Shown here piece by piece: positions 1,405-24,789 of a stretch of DNA of 28,425 nt. The notes below the pieces were generated by a model that made no database searches, was not told the DNA's origin, and saw only the letters and a list, made by a program, of their open reading frames with translations. This stretch comes from Saccoglossus kowalevskii (Eukaryota; Hemichordata; Enteropneusta; Harrimaniidae). Position 1 is the stretch's first letter; every line of letters begins with the position of its first letter. The stretch is from positions 471,886 to 500,310 of the forward strand of contig NW_003123406.1 in assembly GCF_000003605.2 (NCBI RefSeq), written 5' to 3'. Both the position numbers and the translations under genes were made by a program.

Positions 1405-2607
1405 CTTACACACATAGTTGTGTATATATAGTATGTGGAAGGATGTGCTTTATGTAGCGTGGTGCATTTCGTCGTAAAATGCCAAATTCTAGATGAGGTG
1501 GAGTGTTGACATGGCTTAGAATTACCACGAACATACATTTGGGTCTGTCTGTTTCAAAACATTTGTATATAATCAAATTATCAACGTAGTAATTCATGTC
1601 AAATATCGTCCCTGCAATGTGGTCATCGCCTAATATATTAAAGAGTGCCATTTCGGTAGGATCACACAAGTCAGAACTAATGGGAAATGACTCAAATAAC
1701 CAATCTCCGTCATTGAGCCGATTCATCATATGACCATAGCAGAATTACTTCCAGAATCAATTGTGTATTCATTCCTGTCATCTATTGTTCCAGCTTGGCG
1801 AATATATTTAACATAATAATATGTCATCCAAACATTTGGTCCGACAATTCAAACTTGATCCATGTTTAACCCACGATTTGTTGTTCCCGAAAAAATTACT
1901 TTTCCAAAAATATGGGTAATCTATTTCGACCGTACATCGTGTACATCTTTTCTTCGTGAGTGCGCTCCGGGATTTATGTCATGATAAATGACAACACACA
2001 TTTGCAGGGGTCAGAATTTACCCGCAGAGTAGAGCGTGCTTTAGATTTTCCATACAAATTCCAGGGCTAAAACGTGCATCTCGCACATAAAGTAAGCAAA
2101 CAAAGTAATAAAAAATGCAATTATTTTAGTTTTGATACTTTGCATTTACGAACTAGACGAACTAGACTGGCAACGTCGGGTGAGTCAATGACGTCTCGCG
2201 TTCTATTCGAATACTACATTGAATGCGTAAAATCCGCAATATATTAACAATTTTGGCGTAGGTGTGTACATTCTACATATAATTATGTGGATACATTAAT
2301 TGACTTGGCTTAGAATTTCAACATACATACATTTGGATATATCTGTTTCGCACCTGGAATTTGACAGCCAAGAATGTATGATGAATGAATAAATCATTAT
2401 TTATTTGAGACTAATTAGGTTGATTACAGAGAATGCATATCTAAATGATTCCTGTACGAGTGTTGTACCCATGTAACGCATTTTCACGCTTTCCCGTCCA
2501 TGCTTGACAACAGCGCAAAGCATGCTGGGAATAAACCACATGTCAAAGAAACAGAAAAATGGAGGAGCAACAACGTGATGCGTAAGCGAGAGCATGATAC
2601 TAGCTCT
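1405..2607. other. Intergenic sequence with a weak diverged direct repeat
   Basis: About 50 bases at 1505-1556 resemble 2300-2352 (shared TGGCTTAGAATT and CATACATTTGG), roughly 80 percent identical with no third-position bias, so an old non-coding repeat is likelier than a conserved exon. The minus-strand open frame over 1406-1729 was not recognised. The start of the DIRS remnant may extend back to about 2500. Confidence 0.4.
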
Positions 2608-3108
2608 CAGCTGGAGCTATCGGCTCACCACCTTCCGGGGTTACGCAACAGCGCCGCGGACGCCCTCTGGAGAAGTATTCGGTTTCAGAACACCGAGTGG
2701 CAGATCCCGCAATGGGTGGCGGGTCGACTTATTCGTCTCTGGGACGGTCTCCGGGTAGATCTGTTTGCCAATCACCGGAATGCCAAGCTCCGGGCGTACG
2801 TGTCGCTTCTCCTGGAGACGAGCGCCTTTGCGCCTTTCGCTCTATCGATCTCATTGGAGTCACATGGGCGCTTACGCCTTTCCACCCTTCCAACTAGTGC
2901 ACCTAGTGTTGGAGGAACTACGACTCGAGCCACCTGTCTTCTGACACTGGTGGCGCCTAATTGGCCAGTGAAGGTCTGGATCCCAATGTTGCTTGACCTT
3001 CTAGTCGAGTCCCCCGTGGAGTTCCCGGATCTTTCAGCACTCTCCCGATGAGCCCCCGGGATCACATAGATCTGCTGAAAGAGGTTCGGCAAACAGGCCT
3101 GACACATC
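2608..3108 (+). pseudogene. DIRS-type retrotransposon remnant: RNase H end and linker
   Basis: The frame from about 2620 reads HHLPG..N..AD.L, then EW near 2695, then G..VDLFA...NAKL..YVS near 2745-2810. This is the signature of the end of the RNase H domain in DIRS/Ngaro-type tyrosine-recombinase retrotransposons. Around 2845-2935 the matching protein moves to another frame (W.HMGAYAFPPF..V), then returns to the first (LVAPNWPVK.W.P.LLDLL), so at least two frameshifts break it. The first frame stops at 3049-3051, and weak similarity continues to T.LTHP near 3108. No reverse transcriptase portion is recognisable upstream. It is a dead fragment. Confidence 0.75.
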
Positions 3109-3919
3109 CACAGAGTGGATGGAAGTAGCAAGGGCTCTGTTAGATGTCTGGGAACTAACTAATAATAAAGATTTCGGTCGTGAAATGACATAACAATTTA
3201 TTTTGAATAGTTATATTATAGCTACTCAATGCGAGACGGGTTGACATGGTTCTGTTTCAGTTGTGGGCACTTGTACTTAATCGTTTTCTGACACCCGAGA
3301 AAGAACGTACCGGAAACGAAATTAGAACAAGTTACCTTCCCGCTAAATACGCAACTCAACTCTCTGGTAATGTTAATTATTTTGAATATTTTAATTAACA
3401 TACATATTATAGACTTTAGCATATAGAAAGCAAAATGTTGTAAACATCAGTATGATGCTTGTGTTAATCCATATTTGCAAAATATACAATAAGTTTCGTG
3501 TATGTTAAAAATAACAATATCAGATCGCCTGAATCCTTGAAAAAGTCAATTGGGTCACATACTACAATTTGAATATATTTGTGAAAGTAATACATTATGC
3601 GATGTTGTGCCACTAATCCAATATGACAGTCGAATTTTATGAATTGTTCGAATATTTTTTTCCAACCACACATGAAGCCAAATTATGAGTAACAACAATA
3701 CACGTTTTTTATTGGCAGTGTTCAAGTAGACAAAAACCTGACTGGTGAACTCTGACACTCATAAAACCATACCAACAATTTAAGATGGTGAACGTCAGGC
3801 CATGTTGGCCAAAACAACCTTCCCTTGGTCTATATATATACTGTTAACCAACATGGACAAAGCATAGTAATGTTTTCTGAGAAAATATGTTGAGCTAAAT
3901 ATTATTTCATAGTGCCATA
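3109..3919. other. AT-rich sequence between two DIRS-type fragments
   Basis: Nothing recognised. It lies between the RNase H fragment on + and the recombinase fragment on -, so it may be part of the same rearranged insertion. Confidence 0.4.
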
Positions 3920-6294: not shown

Positions 6295-6639
6295 AATATG
6301 CCAGCATTGGTTGTTACAAAAACGATAGTGACGCAGCAGTCCTTGAAAGATCTCGCTCAGGAAGTGATTGTTTATATATCAGTGAACATGCATGTGAAGG
6401 GTCCGAACTAAAACTCTCATGTTATAAAGTTACACTTCAAATAGTATCTTCTAATTACGGGCGTACAGATGATACAACGTGCAAGTCACACAAAAATACT
6501 AACTGCAGAGCAGAAGACAGTCTGGAGCGTGTCAATTCAATGTGTCACGGCAAAAAATCGTGCACGATTACAGCAAGCAACAGCGTTTTTGGTGACCCGT
6601 GTGGAGGCACTCCCAAGTATTTAGAAGTCAATTACTACT
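6295..6639 (+). CDS. Receptor exon: SUEL/rhamnose-binding lectin domain
   Basis: A phase 1-1 exon of 345 bases between TTTCAG and the donor GTGAGT. From about residue 34 it encodes a full SUEL (Gal-lectin) domain: CEGSELKLSC, the YGR motif, V..MC...KSC.I.A, then FGDPCGGTPKYLEVNYYC, whose last Cys codon is completed by the first two bases of the next exon (T + GT). YGR, DPC and KYL are the sugar-contact motifs of rhamnose-binding lectins and all are kept, so glycan binding is plausible. The first 30 or so residues (..SIGCYKNDSD..) carry extra Cys and were not assigned to a family. Confidence 0.92.
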
Positions 6640-9600
6640 GTGAGTATACAAAGTCACGTGCACATACATAGGTGGACAGTTGGCTGGGGGGGGGGGGTGA
6701 TCAGTGGGGTACCCTATTTTCGATTTTGCGAATGGGGGTCCACCATGTTTTTGATGTCATGAATAGGGGGCACCATGTTTTCCAGAATTCACACACGCGC
6801 TTATGCATATTTTTTAATTTATTTCAGAATAAAAGATAAAAAAAGTCAATCGTAGAAATGTGTTGTCAATAATAACTATTACTTATATTGCATATACATT
6901 TTTTGATGAAAAAAAATATAGGCTAGATATTTTGGGGTTGAAGTTGCCAAATAACTAACAGATTATGCAATGCGGCTTGAAAGGCAAGATATGGAAACAT
7001 TATTTTTAGATTATCTTACAAAATATGGTAAGGTCTATAAAATGCAAACACTAAAAATGATGTCAAATTTATGGCAAACCATGACATTTTCACTGCACAT
7101 ATAATACATTTTGTAATCATGTCAGAGCCAAAACTGTTCAGGGGGTCAGCATGACAGTTTTAAAGTATAATGATGAGGTGGATCACCCACTTTTTTTTTA
7201 TTTTATAGGGGGTGGGTCAACTGAGATTAACAGCTGAATAAATGGAATCTGCTGACCCCCCCCCCCCCAGGCCGAAGTAACTGAGAATAAAACTTGTAAC
7301 GCGTAGTTAAATGATACAACAAACATCATAATTGCGTGAAATTAGTCAGATCGAAACGTGTCCCAGTGTCGGCGACAAGCTTTGTAAATGGATATGTTTT
7401 GGTTAGTCAATTATGATAAACAAATACATTGTAGCAAACATAACGCCCAACCGTCCATTGCAGGTAATATATATAGGTGACGGTAGATATTGTTTTGGCG
7501 ACGCACATCTGTGTTAGGCTAGTTTATAGGGGGCATAGCTCTTCTGTGTCGATAAAAATCCTAATGTCTGAAAATAACAAATTTGATGACACCAACTAAA
7601 AAACACCACAAAGACTAATAGCAGACACAAAAAGATCAACGGACCCACATCTAAGTCAAACTGTTACACTCGTTAAAACACGGTATATCTCTTTCTGGAG
7701 GATATGGTGGCTCTAAAAGGGGTCGTTTTGTAAAGTTTCTGAGCTAAACGAACAGATATCCTGTTGCACTGAAGAATGATCTAGTGTCAGTTGGTGTAAT
7801 TATAGAATGTATATAGAATGCGGAAAATTTTCGAAGCTGATTAAAGACAATGGTGGTCGCTCTAAACACTTTTATTTTGTTACAACATAATTCCCCGGAT
7901 TATTTCACGCACACAAATGCTTTTCACAACAATGATGACTGTACACGCTCAACACGTGTTCAGAAAAACTTCCACTTCCTGAACTCAAATGGTTGCCAGA
8001 CTGGGTTGCCAGACCGGGGTGCCAGGCAGCTCCAGCTTATTACAGGATTTAGTTATTGGTATATTTCGAAAATTGTCGAACCGTTACCATCCAAATCTTG
8101 TTTTTATACGAACGTGTCACATTCCGCGTTTGTTCGGCACAAATGAGATCACAGTTACCACTCATTTGAGTAAAATGGTTTGTCTCATTAACCTCCGCCT
8201 TTTCGTCGCTGTTTGTTTTTTAAATGTAGCCAGTTTGTTGTTACAGTTATAGCGGCCAACAAGCAATCGACGGCACCAGATGCCTGGCAGGACAAACGCA
8301 CAGTCAATCAAACGGACCGACTGTTCTAAACTAATTTCGAACTCGACCACACAGTCAATCAGTCAGTTAGTCAAGCAATCAATACATATTGAATTCATAG
8401 GAAAGAATTTACATTATTTAACCTCCTACCCCATCCATGTTGGCGTTTTATTTCAGACTGAAGCTTCAATTTTACACAGGCACTCGTTTTAGTTGTCATT
8501 GTCACTCGGCGACCAATATGGCTGCCGCTCAGAAAAGACCACCTTCAACGCCAACGAATCATCTAACTAGAAACCATGCGATATCCCAGTCGAAACATAT
8601 GTAGAGGCAATTGCGGATTGCTGAACCGATCTGTCATAGTTTTTTTCTAACTAATATCTCATGGGTTGATATGGTCTCTACCGCTGGCATTGAAGATTTG
8701 CACGTGTCAGTCAAACCTCTGGCCCGTCCCTCATCGAAATTGTGTTATCTAATGTACCCGTGTTTACCAGATCCCTGTATTACAAACGACTTAGCCAAGT
8801 ATATGCGTGTTGTGACCGCGGTGCGAGCGAACCCACTAGGTTGTAAAAACAACACTGAAACATGTAAAGTCTTTTCGCTTTATCCGATGAAGTGACTTGA
8901 CATTTCATGCAAGATGAAAGGGCACGGAAAACATGTCCAAACGCACAATCAATAGATATGCAAATATTACATAGTGAACACTGTAGTGAACAGACATGCA
9001 ACAGGTGAAAGGTAAGTTAAATACCACTGACACGCTGACATAACAGACGTTGACGTAACATATAAAAATGTCAGAACACCACCAGATACTGCTATACAAA
9101 AAAATAGACCCATGATCTAACATAGATCACTGAAACTGATATGGCTCACCCCAAAACACGGCTAAAATACGCATGCGTTCAAAATCACCAGTTAATAGAA
9201 CAAATTGAAGATGAAAATAGGATTGAACCAATTTTCAAAAAAGCGCAACGATGGGAATGAAATAGAAAACCCTCCAAAACACAACACAGCACAACACAAC
9301 ACAAATGTATTACTTACGACTCAACGCATTTCATCCCAGGTGCCTGTGTCTGTCCAGATGGGTGGATATTTTTTGGTTCATCTTGTTATTGGTTTAGTAA
9401 CCTAAGTCTATCGTGGGGTGAGGCAAGTGATTATTGCCGAAATAACAGTGCATCGCTGGCTGTACCAAATGATGACAAAGAAAACAAATTTCTGCATACA
9501 ACTGTTACTCCTGAGTTCAATTTGCTTTCGAATGCGTGGGTGGGATGCAGGCATTTACTTGTGAGTAAATCTTTGAAATTGAGCATGCTGATATTTTAAA

Positions 9601-12600
9601 AATTATAAACAAAGTTATCAAATATATTTTATAAAATACATTGCAAAGTCATATTTCAATTTAGCTAAAATAAGTATCTGTTAACGATCGTCATTCACAG
9701 GTACGATGTATAAAACATATATTTACCAAACATCCAAATATTGGTTTAAGAAGTAACATAAAGTATTACATTTCTAACCCCAGGCCGAAGGTACATGGAC
9801 ATGTGGAAGCGGCTATGAACTGTCATTCAGCAAATGGATCCCAGGGCTACCCAACGACTTTACAAATCACGATTGTATGACATTATATTATATATCTAAC
9901 GAACAGTGGTCACGTGACTTGTGTACACGCAGTCATCCATTCATATGTGAATCGGAATGTTATGGTAAAAATACTATTTAAATGTCGTGTTCAGATGTAT
10001 CGCATCATGAATGAAGTGCAAGGCAGGATGCGAAATTTCCAATTATTTATTTATTTATTTATTTATTTTATTTTAGACATAGATGAATGTAACGCATACC
10101 TTCCATGCAAAAATGGTGGAATATGCAACAATACGGATGACTCGTACATCTGTAATTGTAGCGACACTGGGTACATTGGAAGAAACTGTCACATAGGTAA
10201 GTGTTTATATATCGCTAATTATTGATTATATTATGTTTCGATTTTTTAATGATTAATAACATATTGTTAAATTTCGAATAACTTATTGTTCTGTATTTCA
10301 GACATAGATGAATGTACCATGGACAGTCCATGTCAAAATAAAGGTATATGTACAAACACTGATGGATCGTATACATGTAACTGCAACAACACTGGATATG
10401 AAGGGATGCACTGTGACAAAGGTAATATATGACATTATTAGCTACAGCATGTTTCGACTGTGTGATTTACATTTAGTCTTTTGTTTGTGTAGTTAGGAAT
10501 GGGATGAGTATGCCGATTTATACGAATGTTATAATTATATGAATGATAACACTTTCAGCTACCCTGGTTCCAAACAATATACACTTAAATATAAACTAAA
10601 GAACATGTTGTATAATTATATATTCTTATAAAATGTGTGCTTTGTTATTACATTTGAATATAACTTTACCCTCGAGTATAAATTTCAACTTTGATTGTGT
10701 GATATCCACAATTGCTTTGTTAACAAATGCTTCTATGTTGAAGATATTGATGAATGTACCAGGACAAATCCTTGTCAAAATGATGGTGACTGTACTAATA
10801 TAGATGGATCTTATACATGTGACTGTAACAATACTGGATATGACGGGGAAAACTGTGAAGCCGGTAATAGAATATGTTTCTAATTATTGCTCGTAACATC
10901 TCAGTGTTGTTTAGTTAATTGTTGCTTAGCTGGTGTAAATATTAGTGGATGAGTCGGTCATACGATTGGTCGGTCTATTCAATCATTCATTAATGATTTG
11001 TTGATTAATAATACAGTGTATTTTTCTTTATTTCAGATATAGATGAATGTACCATGGACAGTCCATGTCAAAATAAAGGTATATGTACAAACACTGATGG
11101 ATCGTATACATGTAACTGCAACAACACTGGATATGAAGGGATGCACTGTGACAAAGGTAATATATGACATTATTAGCTACAGCATGTTTCGACTGTGTGA
11201 TTTACCTTTAGCCTTTTGTTTGTGTAGCTAGGATTGGGATGATTATGCTGATTTCTACGAATGTATAACATTATAACATATTATATGAATGTAATTATAT
11301 GAATGATAAACTTTTGGTCTAAGAACATAAAACATATCAGTTACCCTGGTTCGCAAACAATATACACTAAAATATGCACTAAAGCACATGTTGTAAAACT
11401 TTATATAATATTGCTTCATAATCGTGTAAATTTGTTTATTTCTGCATTCCAGATATAGATAAATGTGCCACTGAAAACCCATGTCAAAATAAAGGTGGCT
11501 GTACTAACATGAATGGGACATATATATGTAACTGTGATATTGGATATGAAGGAAAACACTGCGATACAGGTAAATGAATATATATATATGGGGGCCGCCA
11601 TCTTGAATACGGCATGACACTAAATGAGAGAAACAGGTTGTGAAACGCGTTATTCAGATTCCCGAAAATCAGGAAAAATGTCAATCTTTCACAGTCAAAC
11701 GTTGGGGTAATATTAAGCCAACCAGTAAAAAAATTCGGCCGAATTCGTCGTAGTTTTTTTGTGTGTGGAGAGATCCATTGAATACGAACACCTAATTGCA
11801 CAAAGAACATAAAAGGCTTTCCTGGGTTGCTTGAAACCAAAAATTGTCATTCCAACTCAGTAGCCAATCAACGACAGCCTTACAGTTAGATGAAAATTCG
11901 GTTCCCTGTAATTCGTCAAACAAACCATGAATAATCGTATAAAACTTTTTGAGTTATCAAAAGAAACTATCCTCAATATTACCAGTTGATATTTGTATCA
12001 AAGGAAATTCCCTTTGAATTACCAATGAAGAATAATTCCCACGGTTCATGTAAGTTTATAGATCATAAAGATGTATTGTGTACCGGAACAGGTCGGATTA
12101 CCAAATATCGTTTCAGACGTAGCTATCGTGAAACTCGGACGGGTGAACGTTTCTTTCCTACACGTTGTGAAGACATCACAGTTGTTATTAGATAAAAGGA
12201 TACCTAGTACCTAAAACTATCGCATGGCCCATATACAAAAATAAATTCGTGTGTTCTTCTATACAAACTCAACTAAGCCATAAACGAAATTACATATTTT
12301 ATATCCAAAACATTGAAAGATAAAATTTCGATATTTCGAAAAAACATGAAATACAATATGTTAATAATAAATTTAATGTTCGTATTAATCATTGTAACTG
12401 TAATTAAAATATAGCAACTGCAAAAAACAGTAATAATTTAAATTGCAGCTCTTACAGTTCATTCATACGAATGTTTTTGTCTGTTTGTCATTAGTATTAT
12501 TTAATATTATACACTAGGAAAAATTAAAACCATTTCAGATATTAATGAATGTGATGTCAGTAATCCCTGTAATTCCGGAGAGTGTATAAATACTCCTGGG

Positions 12601-15600
12601 TCGTATAAATGTGGTTGCAAGCTACTTGTACGAGGAGGACTTGAAGGTTTGTCGCAACCAGGTGTAAATATAATGGTGACATGTACATCCGGGTTAGAAG
12701 TAGAGGGCGCCCAGTCTGTTCAGTGCGAAAATGGACAATGGACTCCGCCTTTTCCAGAATGCACAGGTAGATTAATATTTTTAATGTTTTATATAGAATA
12801 AATGTAATAAATGTTGTTTTTTTATAAAATAATTGGCAGGTCCGAGCATGTTTTGAAAATCGTGCTATGTTCCCTTCCCTAGTACATATGGTTGGTAATT
12901 ACATTTCAAACAATTAAGTAATTAGTAAGGCCTAAGCATTACGTCCGCCCAAAACATGGCTACTATTGCCATAGCAGAAGGATCTGTATTTATATGATCA
13001 AACATTTTTTTTAATAATAAAGTATTGATTTACAATACCAGAACAACAAAAACATTGTACGGAAATTTGATTTCCATATAGAGAAATGTTATTTTCATTT
13101 ATTGTTTAATTTTTCTCAGATTACATGTAGAATAAAATAAATAGTTTATAGACTTTCATTTAAATGCTTTTGAAAATCCATGTCAGCAAAATTGGTAAAT
13201 TTCCTTTATAGCTGAACTATTGAATGCTGATGATTAACTTAACCAAGATTAAAAAATGAAAACCGCACATCAAGTATGATGACTGCTTTATATGTATTTT
13301 ATTTTATAATTTGCATTATTTTTAAAATGAAAATTTGACAAGCTGCTATGCAAATCTTGCTATGCTAAGTGTATCTGAGTACATCAATCACAACAAAGTA
13401 TTGTGAAAATTAAATATTTAAATTTGAACTTTACATATATAACTAATAAGCCAAACGGTTAATCTTCTCGTGCTGGGGTATATAAATTTCGTATTTTGCA
13501 GACATTGACGAGTGTTCTTCTGACCATTCACATGACTGTAGTGTTAACGAGGTCTGTATAAATACTATTAGCAGTTATGAATGTCATTGTAAAGATGGTT
13601 ATCATAGAGAAATCAGTGAATGCGTACCCACACTGGTGGAAACGAAACCAGTGCTGGAACAAGGTAATACTTATATATAATCACATTAATATGAAATATG
13701 TAGCTGACATGCAGACCAGAAGTACACTCAGAAGTAGCACAGCACGTCGAGATTGCGGTTCCATGTCGATCATTGTATTAGTATTACATCTACTTGTGTT
13801 AGGGAAACTTACAAATCCTCCCTAACACATTATCCACGTCAATGCCCATGTATATAAAGGTATACCCCAATAATAAGCATTTCAAGTTCTCCTTGTAGGG
13901 GTCGGTCTACACGTTTGCCCCGTGGACACGTCACTCGATAAGCAGTGGCCTGCGACAACGTCAATGAGTTATACTGCGTGGTTCAAATGCCCCAGTGAAA
14001 CAAAAGGTACGTGAATATTGAATAGACCATAATATCTGTCTGTGTATGGCGTTATTTTTTACAGAATAACAGAACAGGTTGTTAAATTACACACATATGC
14101 TATACACACATACGTAAACTCGTTGTTTATGGTGGCATATTTTTATTTTGTGCTTGTTTCTGTTGAAGGTGTAATGAGACGATACTGTAATGCCGATGGT
14201 AAATGGGAACGACCAGATACCTCAGACTGTAGATCCACTGTGTTGATGGAAATGTTTCTGAATGTATGGTGATAATATGTTCCATTATACAAGTAGATTC
14301 GTTGCGCACTGATCTGATTTAATAGCGAGAGATTATGTAAAACATATAGATTTCTATATTAATATTATTGTTATCATATTATTTCATACACAGGCTGTGA
14401 ATATAACTGATCCTGCCCAAGCAACAGTTATACTACGAAATGTTTCCAATATTATCCAGGCACAATGGCAACCTTTGAGTGGAGATGTGCATATGACAGC
14501 TCTTATTCTTGATAGTCTGTCTGTCAGTGATGTAATATGGGATACTCATAGTATAACAGTGTACATGAAGGTAATGCGTAGTGTGTATCTGGATCACGTA
14601 TTCCTCATAACAATATCTTTATAAAATTATATTTCTCATCAAAAACCTGGCACAACAGTCCAAGGACATCATTACTGTACAAGGAGTTATTTATCTTATT
14701 TTCAACTTGTTTATTGACAAGAACATGTTGGATGTCCGCTGATTCAGCTGCCACACAGTTGCGCTTTCGTGTGTTTACGTTCGATTTGTGCGTTTCATTT
14801 GTTTATAATCAGTTGCTGGCGGCGCCACCACCGTCGTCGTTGTTTTGAGCATCTGTATTGACAATATTGCTCTGATTTTCGCAGTAATCGAGTTTGTTGA
14901 ACCTGTCGGTATTTGGACTTTCAACATTTTGCATTTCGATGCCTAAATTTTCCACAATTCGGTCAGCCAGAATGGTATGTTTGCGTGATGCGACGTGCGC
15001 GCCATAACAGTAGAATATCAGTGTGATTTGCATAACATTGGATATATAGTGCTTTATTCCATTCTAAGTTAGAATTAGAATTAGATGACAATAACATTCA
15101 TTTCTAGGAATTTATCAACTTGGTTGATTATTTGATGGATCTGCAAACAGTTTGGACAGAACTACAAAAGGCAAGTAATATTTCTATGTATCTGTTATTT
15201 TTTTAATTGTTTACGGTACTTCACTAAACGTTTTCAGAGTACATGTTGTGTGATACACTCATCAGACCAAAATATTGTATATTAATTAGTATAATGTTTC
15301 ACCGTACGCTGCGGCTGCGTATTTTCATTAGTATTAGATGGCCAGTTACCAGATTATAACATGGTAGTGCCAAAGCGAACACGATTAAGAATGGATTCGT
15401 AATATCCAAAGTTTAGCCACATTTGTAAGGATTAATTTTAATATTAGTAGTATAATTGAAATTAAAGACCCTACAGCCTACACTATATGATGTTAGAACT
15501 TGTTGCACGGGGATATCCGATTTATATAATGGGATTCGACTGCGTCTTGCCAATTACTGCGTACACTCCTACCTTTGCCCTGATATTTAAACAATATTGA

Positions 15601-18600
15601 ATCTCCAAAAGCGCTGATATGACGCTGTAGTGATTCGTTATTGTTGTTATAAATCACCATCATCAAAATGAAAAAAAGTTGTTACATTTGGGGACTTTTT
15701 GTTGAAATGAATCCGAATGAATTTACAAACAGTGTTTTAAATTTGTGACGTCATAAACATTTTGGATTCTGATTTATGATAGTGGTAATTTGTAACAATT
15801 ATGGAAATCGATTCGTCCTTCATTTTCTTAATAATGATGTTGTTGGAATACCCATTATAGTAATATGGTATTCATTGTTATAACCATACTTAATGCAAAT
15901 GCAAATGAGCTAAAATAGTCCCTTCTATAGTTCTTTATAGTTTTCTTGGCAGTTGATGCACAATTTCAATTAATTCCCACAGTGCATTTTGACACTTTAT
16001 GTTGTTTAATGTTATAGTTATGCATATTTGAATATAAAAACCTCCAGATTACCAAAAGCCATGAAATAAATATGCAAATTAGTCACGTGTCCATGTAATA
16101 ATAATTTCGGTATTTTCACGGCAAATTATGTAAATGGGCCGTTTTCATAGTTGAGTGATGTACAGCTCAAAACCAAAGTGATATGCCTCTGCTAAAGCTG
16201 TAATTTGTGTGTTTTTTCTTCATAAATTGAGTAACAAATTAAATGATTGATGTATTGATCAAATTAAATACAAATCGTGTACTTTTTAAAGCATCAAAAT
16301 AAAACAATATGTTTGAAAATCGCCCTAGCAATGACCCGTGCTCTATGGGTCGAATATGTTAGTGTATATGTTCCCAAATTGAATGAAGACCTTATAGACA
16401 CCTGTTTATACATATCTAGCGCTATGGACCAAGAAATGGAATCTCTCTTCTTTTGGAGACTCTCGGACGTTTCGGCGATACTGTATATGACTTCATGGTG
16501 CTCACTGGAGAAAATATCACTCTCCCTGGTGAAAATATTGGTAAGAATAAAATAGTTACAAAATATTATTTTGTGCATTTTTTTATTTTTTACAGTATTG
16601 ACTGTAATCTCTTTTGTTAGATCTGTTTGGTAGGTTTGTTCTAGATGGTAGTCAGGTTGATATGGATTTTTTCCCTGGAAGAACTGAAAGATCATTGCAT
16701 CCAAACTCGTCTGTTCCTATGCCAACACTGAGCATATCAGCACATACAATACAAAGCTTGAACAGCACTAATCCAGGTAGATGTTTTTCCATATATTCGA
16801 AATTGTTGAATATATATAACTTATGGTAGACTATGTTAAATGCAGTGCACACTGTATATTGCAAAGTCCATCATTAAGTATGACCAATGTGACTGAAATC
16901 CAAGTCATGCTAATTACCCATCAGTATGACAGCGGCTTTTCGGTGCACTATATTTATAATAAACAGACAAAGTTGCTAAATTCAAATTTATTTAACAAAC
17001 CAGTATTTTAACAAGAATTCAAATATTTAACAGATCTTATATTATTGTGCGTTGAGGAAGAAAGAGGGGAGGGAGAGAGAGAAAATTATTTATTATAATG
17101 TGTGTCTTGTGTCTTTTATCCCATCTCAGTAATACATCCTTAGTATAATTTTTCTATTTCTACTATTATAGAAACACCACTAGGAGTAGTGACGTATATC
17201 TTTAAGTACCCAAATGGCGTCTTGCCTTCTATTACTGCGTCAAATCGGTGTGTAGTATACAATTCATTTTTTGTGTGTAAATCAAATTAAAGCGGGGAGT
17301 CGTCACCTGCGCATGCGTCAGATGGCCATAGCGTGTCATTATTTACAAACAAGCGTCTACCTAAGAGCGTTTTTAGCGTGTGTTTTTATCGTAGCTTGGG
17401 ACTCAATTCCCACGCGTGCGCAAGTGACGACCCTCCCGCTTTAAACATATATAAATGTCTCACTGTGATAAACAACCAAGGAGTTGGTGATGAGTACATA
17501 CTGTTGCACACCAATAATGAAATGTTTTTTTTTTATGAATGTAATCATCATGAATTACGCAGTGAAGGAACATAATTTAATTGTCTTCATTTTTAGCCCG
17601 AAGAAGCGGGAGTGGGTCAAGTCAATTACAGCTGTCAAGAAGGTAATTGAAGTAAACACCGCTGTACTATCAGTATCTGTTTATCCAACATCCGTCCGTG
17701 ATATTCTGCCTGGTATGGAGGATGTTGTTAAAATGAAATTATATGAGATCAAGGTTAGTCATTTATTTGTAAGCAATATCATACATATTGTTGATATGCT
17801 CACGGTTAGTGACACGAATAAGCGTTTTACTACACAAGCTCCATTAATGATTGACTTCTATTTTTATGTGAATAATGTAAGTTATGTGCAGAGTACAATC
17901 AGTGAGGAATTAATTTCAAAAATATAATTGACATATACTGGACCTAATCTCCCTAAATTGGTGGCGTGTGTCGCTGTAAAGTCATATTATAGTCCAGGTA
18001 AATGTATATGAAATTGCATCTCCAACAGGATGGATACAATCCGATTTGTTCATACATGAATTTGGATGCACGTTATGGGTAAGCATATATATATATATAT
18101 ATGTAGCAGATACATATAATAGTTATAGGTTATATGATGGTAATTATAACTAATATATAATGACGTAATATAATGTTTCCTAGTTATTTAAGATTTTCAA
18201 TATGAAAACAGTAATAACCGACAGTGCGTTTTATTGCATTTTCATACACTCCTCATTTCTCTTTCAAGGATATGGGAATCGTCGAGCTGCATCATGATTC
18301 ATGACGGAATAGATGAACTGTGGCAGTATACTGATTGTCAGTGTAATCGGTTTGGCAGCTTTGCTGTTATCATGACTATCGGAGAGCCACTGGTGGTATG
18401 TAAATGAAAAAAATTGCAATGCTCATGTCTGTATACATTGTGGCAAGGTGTTCCAACTATTTTATTTTTCGACATTTGATGTAAGAACTCTCGTCGCCAT
18501 CCTCTACAAATCCGATATTTATTTACAAATACATCCATCTGCAATATCTTGTACTAAATAGCTCTTTTGAAACATTATTTAGTTAGCTTCCACCGTATGT

Positions 18601-21600
18601 ATATTGTTAGACGGTATGATTGTAATGTAACAAATTGTTTCCTGGTTGAAATATTACACTGAAAGTTATCCGTATCTATGATTACTACTTGGTATAAGCC
18701 GTCGCACTTGTTGGCAAAAAACGGTCGTTCGCATCAGAATATAAAATAACGGCATTGTATGTTGTTGTTGATTACGAGCTATTGCTGATCGATGAGCGAC
18801 ATACATTCGCACGCTGGTTTTGGTAACAAACGACGAAATATAGCATGAGATAAACCTTATTTTACCACGTAAATTTCATATTTCAGTCTTTTCTGGAGTC
18901 CGGTATCGATGTAATCACAACAATTGCGGGTGTATTATCTGCTGTAATGATTTTTATGACGTTTGTCATGCTGTGTATTCCCAGGTGAGTGATTGATTGT
19001 TATATATCATTGCAAATACGAATCTTGCTAGTGATGTGTGTGGTATATACTAACATATATATGTATCTTACAAGTTACACTACCTATTTTGCAGCTGGAA
19101 TGTGTATTCTGTTCCCTTTGATTCTGAACTATACGTTTTATTGGGGATTTTTGCAATATAAAATCACGTGATTCTTTAAATACAGTTGTATTGTAGAACT
19201 ATGACGTTCTTGATGCACTATACGCTGCTGGTCAATTCTATGTGGATGTTGAATACGAGTATCCAGCTGTTAGCAAGAATGAAGCTGTATGTTTATCAGT
19301 CGACTGCTGCAAGGTACGATACCCGTTCTTTTCTCATATGACAATATTGACAGTTATCCATTACTGTAGAATCGTCTGATTAATGGGGTACAGCTTCACG
19401 AGTCATATTCGAAATACCATATGATCGTTGCATTACCTAAATTCTTGTTTTATTTGTGTATTATTGTTTACAGAGTTGTTTATTTCGTTTCTGGATGGGC
19501 AGTTCCATTAGTCATTGTGTGTGCTTGCTTCTATAGCAATGTATCGTCATACGAAAAAGCAAACAGGTTAGAATTTAGCAGTTATTGCTCATATCAGACC
19601 TATTACCTACAATAATTTTTATTTGTATATATATTGGTTCTTGCGAAAAGTCTGTATAAAGTAGTAGAAAGAACACGTCAGAAGTATTTATCACTGATAT
19701 TATTTCGTTATATATATTTATAGTTGTTGGATTAATAAACAGACTGGCCATTTAATGTTATCGGAAGGTATAGCAACAATGATCATCACAGTAAGTAAAA
19801 TATATGTGGACAAGGTTTCAACCCATTATTCAAGTTTAGTGATGTTTGTAGGTTATCAACATATTATATATACAATGTAACTATACTGAAATAGGTGTTG
19901 TAATCAAAACACACGTCGGTACTAACACACAAACACAACTGGAAATATTAACAGTTTATTTTGGAATTCATTCATTTGCTGGTTAGTCACAATCAATATT
20001 CTCTCAATAAAGCAATAATTGGCACAACATAGATTTCAACGTGATAGTAAGTAATACTGCAATCCAAATGATATGTTACCTGTAACGTTTTGAACATTTT
20101 TGTTTGCAGATTGCATCAATAATACTATCATTGGTATACTATAACTTCAGTGAGTTTGCAGGGAATAAGTGGGGAATTGAGGAACAGAAGTTATGGTGAG
20201 GTTTATAAATTATTAGTTCAGATTCACAAAACAAAATTACCATATATAGCTCGATATCTGTTGATTACATGTTTGTCGAAGTAAACTTTCTTTTGAAATA
20301 TCTCTCCCAGGCAGGAAATCCGATCCACTATTTTGCTAACAGCTTCTTTCACAGTTTGTCGCGTGGCCGGTTTCATCGTGGGAAATGGATCTTCTACCTT
20401 GGCAATTAAGTATGTGTTTGCCGGAGCTATATTTGTCGAGGTAAACATAATGACTCTTTTCGACGAGTGTAATGAGTGGCAAACGTTTGATTAAAACTCT
20501 TCGTTAATACAATGTTGAGTTGTGGAGTGTTGTTGTTCTTATATTATAAACATTTTTATGTAATTATTTTGCAGGGATCAGTGGTGTTTTTGTGCTTCAT
20601 TGCCATAAATAACGAGGTTTGTTCTACAAATAGATACTGATACTTACAAACGTTCCATGTGAAACGATATATATATATATATATATATATATAGTTTTTC
20701 TTAATAACAATATGTTAGAGTTTATTGTCTTTATCAATCTCCAGTTATTGAAAGGTATTAACATCAAATGGTTCATGGGTGATGCTGATTATAAGTTCGC
20801 TTGGCAAGAGTTTCAGAGAAAAGAAGCATCGCGATTGGCTGTTCGTAAAGAAAACAATCAACGTACAAGGAAGTTGTTGCGTTTAAAGCAGGAAGCTGAA
20901 ACAAAAAGACTATTTGCAGCTAGACAACGATCCAATAGAGTGGTCGATCTCTTCACACATGTGAGTAAACGCGATTAATACTAATATTCACAATACCTGT
21001 GTAAATTTAGAAACACATAGTTATTCACAACTATGTAGGTATATAAATTAGGCATATAAATATACAATGTCAGGATTAAAAATTAATTAGTCGCCACATC
21101 CGTCATTCGTACTTAAACAAAACAGAATGTCTAGAATACAAGTTACTCGTAACTGACGAATTACTTGGCGGTCTAACGAACGAGTTTATGGTATATACTG
21201 AAATGGCTTGCATGGATACATGACGAATTGGCGCGGTCGTGTGCAATTTTATAAGCATAAGTTGTACATTAGTGAATCCACATTAATGCTATTACTGTCC
21301 TAGTAGTACTAGTAATAGGTCAAACTAGAAACGTGAAGTCCCATCTTTGTTTAAGTCGACGTGGTGTTTAGTCTAGAGTGACCTATATACAATTCAGTAA
21401 TGACATTTCCAAGGAGAGCTCGGAATAAATTACTACATAAACTATACAAATTGCATTTATTCTGCTGTAAAATAAATAAGATTATATCGTTTGACCTATA
21501 CCACAATATAGTGTCTAGATTGTTATGAGTCACTTTATTATATATTATATATAGTTACTTTATTGATGAATACTTGCTACGAGGATTACATCATTGTAAA

Positions 21601-22018
21601 CCATGATCTTCAAAACATTATACATGTAATTATCAACATCACGCAATATATCAATGTTCATCAATTAAGTAGTACTTCTTTCATTTCACCCCTAATGATC
21701 ACAATTTCACAATGGCTATGTGTGTTCATCAGCATTTTAAAACTATTTCTGAAAAATAAAACAATATAAGTATATATTGTAAATTGTGACAACAATTGAT
21801 TGTAGCCTTCACATTGCTAATGAAGTGAAAAAATGCAATTCTATAGTGTAAACTGACAATTTAGAATCGGAAAATTATGTACGCGCGTTGATTAGCATCA
21901 AGTGATACTGTTTGATATGCGTATTAACTTATTCATTTATTTATATTTTCATTTGTTCTAGGCAAACAGATTTCAACACGCTGACACTGAAAATGATGAT
22001 ATGGATTGTAATATTTGA
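6295..22018 (+). CDS. Adhesion-GPCR-like receptor gene with lectin/EGF/sushi ectodomain (29 exons seen, 5' end missing)
   Basis: This is a multi-exon gene for a cell-surface receptor. Splicing the 29 exons listed separately gives an open frame of about 1,256 residues from 6295 to the TGA at 22016-22018, with matching phase at every junction. Domain order is SUEL lectin, C-type lectin, EGF x5, EGF-sushi, EGF, HormR, GAIN, GPS, membrane core and basic tail. HormR-GAIN-GPS immediately before a membrane core with GW..P in TM4 and CW in extracellular loop 2 defines the adhesion GPCR family; a SUEL domain also begins latrophilins, but the C-type lectin/EGF/sushi stalk and the lack of an olfactomedin domain separate this gene from them. 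The predicted role is surface recognition of glycans or a protein ligand with signalling through the core; that is inference. The GPS lacks the usual cleavage tripeptide and TM2 is not found, so the gene may be an unconventional receptor or be decaying. The signal-peptide exon upstream of 6295 was not identified. Confidence 0.9.
6640..9339 (+). other. Intron 1 (2.7 kb) with G-run and C-run
   Basis: It begins GTGAGT and ends CATCCCAG. It contains a 12-base G run (6686-6697), a 13-base C run (7256-7268), a possible alternative first exon (8175-8232) and a CAACA-type simple repeat at about 9278-9304. Nothing else recognised. Confidence 0.7.
8175..8232 (+). CDS. Candidate alternative first exon encoding a signal peptide
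   Basis: An ATG with A at -3 and G at +4 starts MVCLINLRLFVAVCFLNVA, a short hydrophobic leader with a small-residue end. A potential donor (CCA|GTTTGT) would end the exon in phase 1, exactly matching the C-type lectin exon at 9340 and giving ..NVAS-ACVCPDGW. The TM7 exon of this gene also uses a GTTTGT donor. If used, this exon would make a secretory-leader isoform lacking the SUEL domain. Without transcript data it could be a coincidence. Confidence 0.35.
9340..9560 (+). CDS. Receptor exon: C-type lectin domain, first half
   Basis: Enters in phase 1 and leaves in phase 0 (CTT|GTGAGT). It encodes CVCPDGW.FFGSSCYWF, then W.EAS.YC....ASLAVPND.KEN.FL and ends at NAWVGC, the start of a long-form C-type lectin fold (N-terminal Cys pair, helices, and the position of the usual WIG motif as WVG). 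Confidence 0.92.
9784..9964 (+). CDS. Receptor exon: C-type lectin domain, second half
   Basis: Phase 0 to phase 1 (TATG|GTAAAA). It encodes WIPGLPNDFTNHDC, then EQWSRDLCTRSHPFICE, the C-terminal half of the lectin fold with the closing Cys residues and the PFICE end. The usual sugar/calcium motifs are altered: GLPN replaces G(E/Q)P(N/D) and WSRD replaces WND, so classical calcium-dependent sugar binding is doubtful. Confidence 0.92.
10043..10070 (+). repeat. (TTTA)n microsatellite forming an acceptor tract
   Basis: TTTA repeats directly before the TTTTAG acceptor of the EGF 1 exon. Confidence 0.85.
10077..10196 (+). CDS. Receptor exon: calcium-binding EGF 1
   Basis: A 120-base phase 1-1 exon. 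It starts with DIDEC (calcium-binding consensus), has six Cys and the ASN-hydroxylation pattern C.N....Y.C. Its acceptor tract is an unusual (TTTA)n repeat (10043-10070) directly before TTTTAG. Confidence 0.94.
10302..10421 (+). CDS. Receptor exon: calcium-binding EGF 2
   Basis: A 120-base phase 1-1 exon with DIDEC, six Cys and C.N....Y.C. It differs from the EGF4 exon (11037-11156) at one base only, a silent change in the first Asp codon. Confidence 0.95.
10744..10863 (+). CDS. Receptor exon: calcium-binding EGF 3
   Basis: A 120-base phase 1-1 exon with DIDEC, six Cys and C.N....Y.C. The acceptor (TATGTTGAAG) is poor in pyrimidines, so this exon could be inefficiently spliced or skipped; skipping would keep the frame. 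Confidence 0.88.
11037..11156 (+). CDS. Receptor exon: calcium-binding EGF 4 (near-identical to EGF 2)
   Basis: A 120-base phase 1-1 exon, 119/120 identical to 10302-10421, preceded by a good TTTATTTCAG acceptor. The homology continues into the following intron. Confidence 0.95.
11453..11569 (+). CDS. Receptor exon: EGF 5 with altered calcium site
   Basis: A 117-base phase 1-1 exon with six Cys. The consensus DIDEC is DIDKC here, so the calcium-ligand Glu is lost, and the loop before GYEG is one residue shorter than in EGF 1-4. Confidence 0.93.
11588..11917. repeat. Foldback (MITE-like) repeat, copy B, in intron
   Basis: Second copy of the element at 1064-1404. The left part aligns directly from ATGGGGGCCGCC; the CGAACACCTAATT block near 11785 and CTTGAAACCAAAAATTG downstream match the hairpin arms of copy A. 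It lies 18 bases after the EGF5 donor, in the intron before the EGF-sushi exon. Confidence 0.72.
11918..12538 (+). other. Remainder of the intron between EGF5 and EGF-sushi exons
   Basis: AT-rich, no further element recognised; it ends in CATTTCAG. Confidence 0.6.
12539..12766 (+). CDS. Receptor exon: truncated EGF 6 fused to a sushi (CCP) domain
   Basis: A 228-base phase 1-1 exon. It starts DINEC and gives four EGF Cys up to SYKC; the next Cys (GCKLL) is followed by a sushi pattern: C-21 residues-C-13-C-11-C with G.W...FP.C at the end. Eight Cys are present where a full EGF plus full sushi would need ten, so the last EGF disulphide seems lost and the fifth Cys probably serves as the first sushi Cys. 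The first sushi loop is short. Confidence 0.88.
12767..13501 (+). other. Intron between EGF-sushi and EGF 7 exons
   Basis: AT-rich; GTAGAT donor and TATTTTGCAG acceptor. No element recognised. Confidence 0.7.
13502..13663 (+). CDS. Receptor exon: EGF 7 and linker
   Basis: A 162-base phase 1-1 exon: DIDEC, CSVNEVC, C.N..SSYECHC, then EC, giving a calcium-binding EGF in the fibulin/fibrillin style, followed by about 14 residues of linker that lead to the HormR domain. Confidence 0.92.
13899..14006 (+). CDS. Receptor exon: hormone-receptor motif (HormR), first half
   Basis: A 108-base phase 1-1 exon. It encodes VCPVDTS...QWPATTS...TAWFKCPSETKG, matching the W..T..G..A...CP core of HormR domains found before GAIN in many adhesion GPCRs. 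Confidence 0.88.
14169..14263 (+). CDS. Receptor exon: HormR second half and start of GAIN
   Basis: Phase 1 to phase 0. It encodes RRYCNADGKWERPDTSDC, the closing HormR pattern (R.C...G.W..PD.S.C), then the first helix leading to GAIN. The donor is AAT|GTATGG. Confidence 0.88.
14394..14570 (+). CDS. Receptor exon: GAIN subdomain A
   Basis: Phase 0-0, 59 codons. NITDPAQATVILRNVSNI and LSGDVHMTALILDSL match the helical GAIN A region (IT......A..LSN.T.......L...D...AL..L). Confidence 0.88.
14571..15107 (+). other. Intron between GAIN exons
   Basis: It holds a more GC-rich stretch around 14712-15010 with a 74-codon open frame on - (14809-15033) that I could not assign; it may be an insertion. 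Confidence 0.55.
15108..15170 (+). CDS. Receptor exon: GAIN helix, followed by a GC donor
   Basis: Phase 0-0, 21 codons (EFINLVDYLMDLQTVWTELQ.), a GAIN A helix. The exon ends AAAAG|GCAAGT. The downstream exon is open only in phase 0, which requires the GC donor; the GT four bases later would shift the frame into stops. Confidence 0.85.
15171..16419 (+). other. GC-AG intron, 1.25 kb
   Basis: Donor AAG|GCAAGT, acceptor ATATCTAG. The body is AT-rich with no recognised element. Confidence 0.75.
16420..16540 (+). CDS. Receptor exon: GAIN subdomain A end / B start
   Basis: Phase 0 to phase 1. It encodes SLLLETLGRFGDTVYDF, the LL..LE.F helix, then GENITLPGENI, the I.L...NI strand at the A/B boundary. 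Its acceptor lies just after the in-frame TAG that closes the frame upstream. Confidence 0.85.
16621..16776 (+). CDS. Receptor exon: GAIN subdomain B
   Basis: A 156-base phase 1-1 exon after CTCTTTTGTTAG. It encodes FGRFVLDGSQVDMDFFPG and a Ser/Thr/Pro-rich loop, consistent with GAIN B strands and an insertion. Confidence 0.86.
16777..17171 (+). other. Intron with purine-rich tract
   Basis: A purine-only tract (GA/GGGA repeats) lies at about 17054-17084; otherwise AT-rich. Confidence 0.65.
17172..17247 (+). CDS. Receptor exon: GAIN B strand
   Basis: Phase 1 to phase 2, encoding LGVVTYIFKYPNGVLPSI, matching the V.F..Y....L strand pair of GAIN B. The donor is ATCG|GTGTGT. Confidence 0.82.
17287..17444. 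mobile_element. TTAA-flanked miniature inverted-repeat transposon
   Basis: A 150-base element (17291-17440) with near-perfect terminal inverted repeats of about 28 bases: the left end starts AGCGGGGAGTCGTCAC, the right end finishes GTGACGACCCTCCCGCT. It is flanked by TTAA on both sides (17287-17290 and 17441-17444), the target duplication of piggyBac- and Kolobok-type transposons. It has no coding capacity and sits in a GAIN intron. Confidence 0.85.
17597..17753 (+). CDS. Receptor exon: GAIN B strands
   Basis: Phase 2 to phase 0 (ATCAAG|GTTAGT). It encodes NTAVLSVSVYPTSVRD, then VVKMKLYEIK, matching the V.S.SV......L...V.I.F.H strands just before the GPS. Confidence 0.86.
18029..18078 (+). 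CDS. Receptor exon: GPS motif, first part
   Basis: Phase 0 to phase 2, 50 bases: DGYNPICSYMNLDARY, holding the first GPS Cys. The next intron starts with an AT dinucleotide repeat (18085-18102). Confidence 0.82.
18085..18102. repeat. (AT)n microsatellite
   Basis: Nine AT units, starting six bases after the donor of the first GPS exon. Confidence 0.9.
18269..18395 (+). CDS. Receptor exon: GPS motif with altered cleavage site
   Basis: Phase 2 to phase 0. It encodes IWESSSC, then WQYTDCQCNRFGSFAVIM. The two Trp and the Cys spacing follow the GPS consensus (W....C.......W...T.C.CN...SFAVLM), but the H-L/M-T/S cleavage tripeptide is R-F-G. The catalytic His and the nucleophile are both gone, so self-cleavage is not expected. 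Confidence 0.9.
18396..18886 (+). other. Intron between GPS and TM1 exons
   Basis: GTATGT donor, CATATTTCAG acceptor. No element recognised. Confidence 0.65.
18887..18984 (+). CDS. Receptor exon: TM1
   Basis: Phase 0 to phase 2, ending CCCAG|GTGAGT. After a short linker it encodes VITTIAGVLSAVMIFMTFVM, one hydrophobic helix ending in LCIPR, where TM1 of adhesion GPCRs stands. Confidence 0.88.
19197..19313 (+). CDS. Receptor exon: TM3 (start uncertain; TM2 not found)
   Basis: Phase 2-2 if it starts at 19197. It encodes TFLMHYTLLVNSMWMLNTSI.LL, matching TM3 (LHYF.L..F.WML.EG..L). Joining 18984 to 19197 is in frame but leaves out TM2. The same frame continues upstream through LYC (the expected TM3-top Cys, 19186-19194) to another acceptor, TATTTTGCAG ending at 19094, preceded by a TACTAAC branch-point sequence, but that extension has in-frame TAA codons at 19159-19161 and 19177-19179. 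Confidence 0.75.
19474..19566 (+). CDS. Receptor exon: TM4
   Basis: A 93-base phase 2-2 exon: VVYFVSGWAVPLVIVCACFY. GW..P is the adhesion GPCR TM4 signature. Donor AACAG|GTTAGA. Confidence 0.9.
19724..19790 (+). CDS. Receptor exon: extracellular loop 2 and start of TM5
   Basis: Phase 2 to phase 0. It begins with S-CW (ECL2 Cys-Trp of adhesion GPCRs) and runs into the hydrophobic GIATMIIT. Donor GTAAGT. Confidence 0.88.
20110..20195 (+). CDS. Receptor exon: TM5 end and intracellular loop 3
   Basis: Phase 0 to phase 2. It encodes IASIILSLVYYNF, completing TM5, then the polar loop EFAGNKWGIEEQKL. Confidence 0.86.
20311..20440 (+). CDS. Receptor exon: TM6 and first half of TM7
   Basis: Phase 2 to phase 0 after a strong CTCTCCCAG acceptor. 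RSTILLTASFTVCRVAGFIV is TM6, lacking the usual conserved Trp; KYVFAGAIFVE starts TM7. Confidence 0.88.
20575..20616 (+). CDS. Receptor exon: second half of TM7 (42 bases)
   Basis: A phase 0-0 microexon-sized exon: GSVVFLCFIAINNE, matching the QG..IF...C..N.EV end of TM7. Acceptor TATTTTGCAG, donor GAG|GTTTGT. Confidence 0.87.
20667..20693. repeat. (AT)n microsatellite
   Basis: About 13 AT units in the intron between the TM7 and tail exons. Confidence 0.9.
20745..20960 (+). CDS. Receptor exon: cytoplasmic tail, basic helical region
   Basis: Phase 0-0, 72 codons. Directly after TM7 it encodes a Lys/Arg/Gln/Glu-rich stretch (for example RTRKLLRLKQEAETKRLF) that looks like a continuous amphipathic helix, then RSNRVVDLFTH before the GTGAGT donor. 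Confidence 0.85.
20961..21961 (+). other. Last intron of the receptor gene
   Basis: 1.0 kb, AT-rich, ending TTTGTTCTAG. Nothing recognised. Confidence 0.65.
21962..22018 (+). CDS. Receptor exon: acidic C-terminus and stop
   Basis: Phase 0. It encodes ANRFQHADTENDDMDCNI and the TGA stop at 22016-22018. The tail ends acidic, with no PDZ-ligand-like end. Confidence 0.82.
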   Translation, partial: ANRFQHADTENDDMDCNI

Positions 22019-24609: not shown

Positions 24610-24789
24610 GACGTCAAAAGATTGCGGCTGATCTGCACTGGCTCGGAAGATGAATTCTGATTGGCTAAAAAAACAAAAAAACTTGTGGCGTTGAATGCAC
24701 GTTCATTGTCAGTATTGTTATGCAAATTCAAACTAGCTAATCATTTACAACCTTCCGAGCCAGTGCAGATTAGCCCAAAGATTGATGTC
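24610..24789. repeat. Palindromic MITE-like element
   Basis: The left arm (24610-24649) and right arm (24752-24789) are inverted repeats; the block ATCTGCACTGGCTCGGAAG is matched exactly by CTTCCGAGCCAGTGCAGAT. The arms continue inward more weakly. The total is 180 bases with no coding capacity. Target-site duplication not resolved. Confidence 0.75.

Follow-up and report, generated by a model that had tools for sequence, protein, structure and literature searches.

A Saccoglossus kowalevskii adhesion GPCR gene with a probable C-type lectin head and, as assembled, a broken second transmembrane exon: one copy of a probable clustered family

Introduction

The EGF-TM7 receptors (ADGRE) carry tandem calcium-binding EGF repeats on a GAIN domain and a seven-transmembrane core, and the secreted rhamnose-binding lectins are tandem lectins without a receptor part. 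The latrophilins (ADGRL) display a SUEL (rhamnose-binding lectin, RBL) domain, a HormR domain, a GAIN domain, a GPS, and a class-B2 core, and EGF and other extra domains have been reported in some of the invertebrate forms (PMC6422961). In PKD1L2, a C-type lectin, a galactose-binding lectin, and a GPS occur on one protein (PMC5318412). The HLT/HLS triplet is not universal among adhesion GPCRs, and members that are not cleaved are known (PMC13197933).

The locus described here lies in a window of 28,425 bases from Saccoglossus kowalevskii (C1594:471886-500310), which contains no N. It shares with the latrophilins the HormR, GAIN, GPS, and class-B2 modules and a SUEL exon that may be joined to them, and with some of their invertebrate forms the EGF repeats, but it differs from them in its C-type lectin domain (CTLD), its EGF/sushi hybrid, and its lack of the HLT triplet. 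No olfactomedin domain was matched by Pfam in the spliced protein. The tandem EGF repeats are likewise found in the ADGRE receptors, from which the locus differs by its lectin heads, HormR domain, and sushi module. In PKD1L2, in contrast, the CTLD precedes the galactose-binding lectin, PLAT and channel domains are present, and REJ occurs in some; no Pfam match to PLAT, the polycystin channel, or REJ was observed in the spliced protein up to an E-value of 1. The closest solved relatives of the SUEL domain are the secreted rhamnose-binding lectins (5h4s, CSL3).

An initial annotation had described the locus as unlike vertebrate receptors. That description fits the adhesion GPCRs that were checked, but vertebrate PKD1L2 does pair two lectins with a GPS (PMC5318412). 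A literature search that reached few subscription papers returned no report of an adhesion GPCR with both a SUEL domain and a CTLD. Among lancelet gene models, novel domain combinations, one of them with Lectin_C, were prediction errors (PMC4967905), and by analogy the combination in the window may carry the same risk. The window gene itself is real and belongs to a real domain family; one junction of the proposed chain is wrong, and we infer the attachment of one head, the SUEL domain.

Results

The gene and its relatives

A chain of 29 exons on the plus strand, open throughout, was rebuilt from the sequence at positions 6295-22018. All 28 junctions agree in phase, as the initial annotation had claimed, although the one leading from TM1 to TM3 does so only through an AG within the TM3 exon. 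The intron borders comprise 27 of the GT-AG type and one of the GC-AG type (15171-16419). The spliced translation runs to 1257 positions when the split first codon and the terminal TGA are counted, and it contains no other stop. The domains follow one another in the order SUEL, CTLD, five EGF repeats, EGF/sushi hybrid, EGF, HormR, GAIN, GPS, and membrane core. A Pfam run on the spliced protein placed SUEL (73.8 bits), Lectin_C (59.4 bits), EGF_CA (117.4 bits, seven stretches), and 7tm_2 (50.3 bits) above the cut-off, whereas HRM (21.1 bits; cut-off 26.2), GPS (21.0; 22.5), and GAIN (19.5; 26.5) fell below it in the right order. The phmmer alignment to ADGRL3 covers the HormR/GAIN/GPS region and continues through GAIN, GPS, and TM1. 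The Pfam order and the ADGRL3 alignment thus show GAIN and GPS adjoining the membrane, the arrangement of an adhesion GPCR. The domain order claimed initially stands insofar as Pfam and phmmer place the modules, but the core lacks TM2 and the SUEL and CTLD exons are only putatively joined.

Six flanking open stretches (2449-3048 among them) gave no match in a Pfam scan, and signal-peptide scans gave no decisive candidate for a first exon with a start codon and signal peptide. The fetched assembly flanks of the window read as N, as does the contig stretch at 452-471 kb. Decayed open stretches at 2449-3190 presumably resemble the end of a retrotransposon polyprotein. A dispersed repeat is present at 1066-1377 and 11591-11898 as two direct copies plus an inverted match, with one copy inside a receptor intron, and an inverted repeat at 24626-24775 has 42-base arms that are 79% complementary.

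The window's own genome (572 Mb, 4830 contigs) was searched with the HormR-to-tail protein, which yielded 71 matches, the window's own exons included. Further groups of matches lie on the same contig near 30-39, 78-87, 326-337 (referred to as P1), 340-344, and 366-375 kb (P2), and family matches were also found on contigs C4070 and C2722. The shared stalk can be followed piecewise in the C2722 relative, which repeats the order of EGFs, hybrid-like exon, EGF, HormR, GAIN, and GPS, and from HormR or GAIN to the tail in the others. Adhesion-type cores in intronless open stretches of 678-773 residues (L001, L004, and L005) fall outside the receptor family.

The lectin heads

The features at the start of the gene are as follows.

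6295..6639, plus strand: SUEL (rhamnose-binding lectin) exon, phase 1-1, with ~30 extra N-terminal residues
8175..8232, plus strand: speculative candidate for an alternative first exon, signal-peptide-like (MVCLINLRLFVAVCFLNVA), phase-1 end, donor score 1.8
9340..9560, plus strand: C-type lectin exon 1 (Pfam Lectin_C), phase 1-0, with counterparts upstream of P1 and P2
9784..9964, plus strand: C-type lectin exon 2, LPN for QPD and WSRD for WND, with a counterpart upstream of P2

Calcium-dependent sugar binding by CTLDs is associated with the motifs QPD or EPN and WND. A comparison of the window CTLD with ASGPR1 reveals LPN at the QPD position and WSRD at the WND position, and because both positions are changed, sugar binding of this type is doubtful. 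Upstream CTLD exons on the same strand, placed by position, accompany both P1 (first exon) and P2 (both exons), and thus the CTLD probably belongs to the receptor family. An additional C-type lectin exon is located between the cluster and the window at C1594:416841-417074, with no stalk match reported nearby. In the C2722 relative, a Laminin_G_3 match (Pfam, 50.9 bits) lies at L042:9303-9998, shortly upstream of the first EGF, and its position suggests that this LamG-type domain is part of the same gene. Given that domain, the N-terminal heads may be exchanged among family members. The proposal that the locus encodes a recognition receptor, possibly a lineage-specific one, is supported in part by the relatives clustered on one contig and by one elsewhere whose EGFs are preceded by another kind of domain, all in the single genome searched.

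The best PDB match for the SUEL domain is 5h4s (183.8 bits over three repeats); a score of 117.4 bits was obtained over two repeats, and the best single repeat gave 75.4 bits. The rhamnose contacts of latrophilin-1 are E42, adjacent to the first cysteine, Y63 in the YGR motif, and G117 and K120 in loop 2 (PMC2430599). When matched by eye to latrophilin-1, the contact residues are kept in the window domain within ACEGS, NYGR, and DPCGGTPKYL. Of the two glycan-binding folds claimed at the outset, the SUEL domain therefore retains its rhamnose contacts, but the CTLD is changed at both motifs and the SUEL domain perhaps lies outside of the gene.

The SUEL exon, further upstream than the CTLD, may be joined to the receptor gene, and on balance we regard such a join as rather probable. 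Its splice sites are ordinary in a leave-one-out scoring (donor 5.8, acceptor 6.2) and its phase is 1-1, although about 5% of the window sites score as well (151 of 3407 GT and 153 of 2619 AG), and no other coding exon was recognised between it and the CTLD exons. The alternative, possible though the less probable of the two, is that the SUEL exon is part of another gene or an optional first module, and that the receptor proper has its signal peptide joined directly to the CTLD. In keeping with this, the searchable part of the genome contains 26 SUEL matches, of which the only one on C1594 is that in the window, and there are none on C4070 or C2722. No SUEL domain was observed upstream of the CTLD in the 2.7 kb (P1) and 2.0 kb (P2) read; since the two domains are 2.7 kb apart in the window, the stretch read for P2 is too short for comparison. 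In the window, P1, and P2 alike, signal-peptide-like exons are located upstream of the CTLD, with donor scores of 1.8, 2.2, and 2.9 to 5.7, respectively; the donors of the window gene model score at least 5.2, or at least 3.2 when left out one at a time. Finally, the CTLD exon of P1 also starts with GT, and completion of the last SUEL cysteine at the junction is thus unspecific. On another contig, a CTLD match at C1503:52696-53073 and a SUEL match ~2 kb further on at 55162-55428 share one strand; they may represent a further gene that combines the two lectins, arranged in the order seen in PKD1L2.

The stalk

The stalk comprises the following exons.

10077..10196, plus strand: EGF 1 (Pfam EGF_CA)
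10302..10421, plus strand: EGF 2 (Pfam EGF_CA)
10744..10863, plus strand: EGF 3 (Pfam EGF_CA)
11037..11156, plus strand: EGF 4, near-identical copy of EGF 2
11453..11569, plus strand: EGF 5 (Pfam EGF_CA)
12539..12766, plus strand: EGF/sushi hybrid exon
13502..13663, plus strand: EGF 7 and linker (Pfam; C2722 relative)
13899..14006, plus strand: HormR exon 1 (Pfam HRM, below cut-off)
14169..14263, plus strand: HormR exon 2 (Pfam; relatives)
14394..14570, plus strand: GAIN exon 1 (Pfam; ADGRL3 alignment; relatives)
15108..15170, plus strand: GAIN exon 2, GC donor (AAAAG/gcaagt)
16420..16540, plus strand: GAIN exon 3 (Pfam; ADGRL3 alignment; relatives)
16621..16776, plus strand: GAIN exon 4 (Pfam; relatives)
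17172..17247, plus strand: GAIN exon 5 (Pfam; relatives)
17597..17753, plus strand: GAIN exon 6 (Pfam; relatives)
18029..18078, plus strand: GPS exon 1 (Pfam; relatives)
18269..18395, plus strand: GPS exon 2, CQCN-RFG-SFAVIM

The EGF 2 and EGF 4 exons differ at one of 120 bases, a likeness that reflects a recent duplication or conversion inside the gene. The sequence after each of these two exons is also highly similar. The hybrid exon begins as a truncated EGF, covering the first 31 of the 43 EGF_CA profile positions (1-31), to which a Sushi part is fused. When the exon was scanned alone, Sushi scored 31.7 bits over profile positions 20-56 of 56, which exceeds the cut-off, whereas the Pfam scan of the whole ectodomain returned no Sushi match. 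A similar exon in the C2722 relative is 39% identical over 76 amino acids, and there Pfam matches EGF only and no Sushi. The unusual donor of GAIN exon 2 is supported by the relative at L047, whose exon ends in the same phase with a GT donor.

In the GPS, the window has RFG where ADGRL3 has HLT. The HLT triplet is absent from the window and from all four GPS hits of relatives (L019, L026, L044, and L045), and is present in all four of the other GPS hits among the fetched loci (L036, L038, L039, and L041). The core of the tethered agonist, FAVIM, is kept in the window copy.

The membrane core

The exons of the membrane core and tail are listed below.

18887..18984, plus strand: TM1 exon, ending in phase 2 (ADGRL3 alignment; relatives)
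19095..19158, plus strand: TM2 exon relic, acceptor and phase as in the relatives, part missing, 3' end and donor gone
19186..19313, plus strand: TM3 exon as defined by the relatives, starting LYCR in phase 0, conserved cysteine kept; it starts at 19197 in the chain first proposed
19474..19566, plus strand: TM4 exon (Pfam; relatives)
19724..19790, plus strand: ECL2/TM5 exon a (Pfam; relatives)
20110..20195, plus strand: TM5 exon b (Pfam; relatives)
20311..20440, plus strand: TM6-TM7 exon, CRVAG where ADGRD1 has SWVFG
20575..20616, plus strand: TM7 exon (Pfam; relatives)
20745..20960, plus strand: C-terminal tail exon 1 (chain reconstruction; relatives)
21962..22018, plus strand: C-terminal tail exon 2, ending with TGA

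The match to the 7tm_2 profile does not begin until position 78 of 250. When the first chain is aligned with ADGRL3, the subject jumps from residue 971 to residue 1011 between query residues 410 and 412, and thus TM2 and the following loop are absent from that chain. Its junction from 18984 to 19197 is in phase only by way of an AG that lies inside the TM3 exon as the relatives define it. The membrane core of the chain first proposed is not whole, as this junction skips TM2.

All three relatives whose sequence was read continuously onward from TM1, namely P1 (L019), C4070 (L026), and C2722 (L044), have an intact, separate TM2 exon. It sits in phase 2-0 between TM1 and TM3 in C4070 and C2722, and soon after TM1 in P1. 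For P2, no TM2 match was found in the 1.5 kb read upstream of TM3. In P1, P2, C4070, and C2722, a TM3 exon beginning with LYCR or LLCR can be read that is in phase 0 and includes the conserved cysteine; on the basis of this phase and cysteine, the window exon starts at 19186 rather than 19197.

Reading from the acceptor at 19095 in the frame of TM3, the window shows a short hydrophobic stretch, TAA codons at 19159 and 19177, and then the conserved cysteine before TM3. With X at both stops, this reading aligns through to ADGRD1 and ADGRL3. In a chance test, equally good alignments to both proteins were obtained for 145 of 5000 shuffled sequences and for 40 of 1287 pieces of intron (~3%), so the relic alone proves little and the case rests on the relatives. 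Alignment of the window with C4070 and C2722 reveals a deletion within the TM2 exon as well as the loss of its 3' end, its donor, and the greater part of the intron that follows. A TM2 exon candidate at 19075-19167 was rejected (acceptor 0.7, donor 3.5, intron of 29 bases), as were the frame-1 reading from 19095 and candidates inside the 212-base intron, which fail in splice sites, intron size, or frame. No conventional splice route to seven helices was found in the window. As assembled, the window copy lacks the class-B2 seven-helix core that the family possesses as far as it was read.

The TM3-TM7 part scores 23.3 bits against ADGRL3 and 32.0 against ADGRD1, no better for the latrophilin; core matches to ADGRD1, ADGRL3, and ADGRE are all weak, with ADGRE weaker than ADGRD1. 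The vertebrate adhesion GPCR signatures for TM3, TM4, and TM7 are LHxxxLxxFxW, GxGxP, and FxxxxxxQG (PMC8584163). Their window counterparts, MHYTLLVNSMW, GWAVP, and FAGAIFVEG, keep the W, P, and G, with one or two other positions changed in each, as judged by eye. The TM6 position occupied by tryptophan in ADGRD1 is an arginine in the window, P1, P2, and both of the C2722 copies seen. The view that the lectins sit on one signalling receptor thus finds no support in this copy, given its broken TM2, the RFG at its GPS triplet, and the arginine at the tryptophan position of TM6. As sequenced, the window copy probably cannot signal in the manner of a normal receptor and would be signalling-dead or recently disabled. 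A second copy on C2722 (L046:282-410) has two stops within its TM3 match and is apparently another damaged member; the window copy is therefore not the sole one.

Constraint on the window copy

Comparison of the window with P1 gave Ka 0.169 and Ks 0.589 over 13 of the 29 exons, and with P2 Ka 0.187 and Ks 0.590 over 12 of the 29. These values leave out exons of less than 45% ungapped identity, which biases Ka downward, and include the TM3 exon, which is seemingly converted. With C2722 as the outgroup (10 exons, 348 positions), the window copy accounts for 20 changes and P1 for 22. The Ka and Ks values, together with the even protein changes relative to P1, indicate that the family is constrained and that there has been no general decay of the window copy. 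Either TM2 was lost recently, or its loss is tolerated, or the assembly is in error. Between the window and P1 the TM3 exon differs at 8 of 142 aligned bases, and between the window and P2 at 5 of 139, whereas protein identity in the remaining exons compared is 45-87%. This near-identity resembles gene conversion, which could have produced the TM2 break.

Discussion

The reading we consider likely is that the window contains one copy of a clustered adhesion GPCR family, with a CTLD head, a SUEL domain perhaps joined to it, and a broken TM2 exon. The part shared by the family would consist of EGF repeats, an EGF/sushi-like exon, an EGF, HormR, GAIN, and the class-B2 membrane core. On C1594 the head would include the C-type lectin, as seen in the window and, by its upstream position on the same strand, in P1 and P2. 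Relative to C4070 and C2722, the window copy appears to have lost some of its TM2 exon along with the donor and most of the intron after it, and with TM2 broken no normal seven-helix receptor can be produced from the assembled gene. Counter to a broken gene, all 29 exons of the chain are free of stops and frameshifts.

An open reading throughout the rest of the gene, in a copy that is not accelerated, would also be expected if the TM2 stretch had been lost or mis-joined in assembly, among similar relatives and repeats, and the real gene encoded an intact seven-helix receptor. The near-identical TM3 exons of the window, P1, and P2 can be explained by such a mis-join as well as by gene conversion. 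The relic, however, has an internal deletion in addition to its lost 3' end, which is more than one mis-join predicts, and the window contains no N; we thus regard an assembly error as improbable.

Still less probable is a functional six-helix protein made by splicing 18984 to 19197. That splice is in phase, and its acceptor score of 5.9 is within the range of the model, though the site itself was in the training set. The same AG sits inside the TM3 exon of P1 and P2, whose upstream acceptor keeps the conserved cysteine, and with one helix fewer the basic tail would be expected to lie on the outer face. Preservation of seven helices by a tiny, unrecognised intron is highly improbable. The candidate is a 33-base GC-AG stretch at 19153-19185 that would remove both stops in phase, and among the joins tried it gives the best 7tm_2 score (59.8 bits versus 54.4 for read-through and 54.0 for the first chain). 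However, no intron of the model is shorter than 80 bases, and the donor of the relatives lies further on in sequence missing from the window. The gain in score, moreover, may stem solely from the inclusion of LYC, residues that the start at 19186 supplies anyway.

If the TM2 exon is indeed broken, the gene would be either a copy that was disabled recently or the source of a membrane-anchored lectin, truncated or with six helices, that can bind but does not signal. By analogy to known adhesion GPCRs, the intact relatives would be tethered recognition receptors in which the head binds a glycan or a protein. The uncleaved GAIN domain would remain attached, and force or binding might expose the conserved FAVIM agonist segment without shedding of the head. 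A more far-reaching scheme, which we think unlikely as it stands, is a tandem array with a constant uncleavable stalk, exchanged lectin-fold heads (CTLD, SUEL plus CTLD, or LamG), and helix-losing copies serving as non-signalling decoys, that is, a recognition repertoire built on adhesion GPCRs.

The locus carries a caution in that 28 of 28 in-phase junctions hid a missing helix, and it was relatives from the same genome that exposed the gap. The family is more interesting than the window copy itself. If it works as we infer, with a fixed stalk, no cleavage triplet, and a varying head, the function of the head and cleavage-independent activation would be separable.
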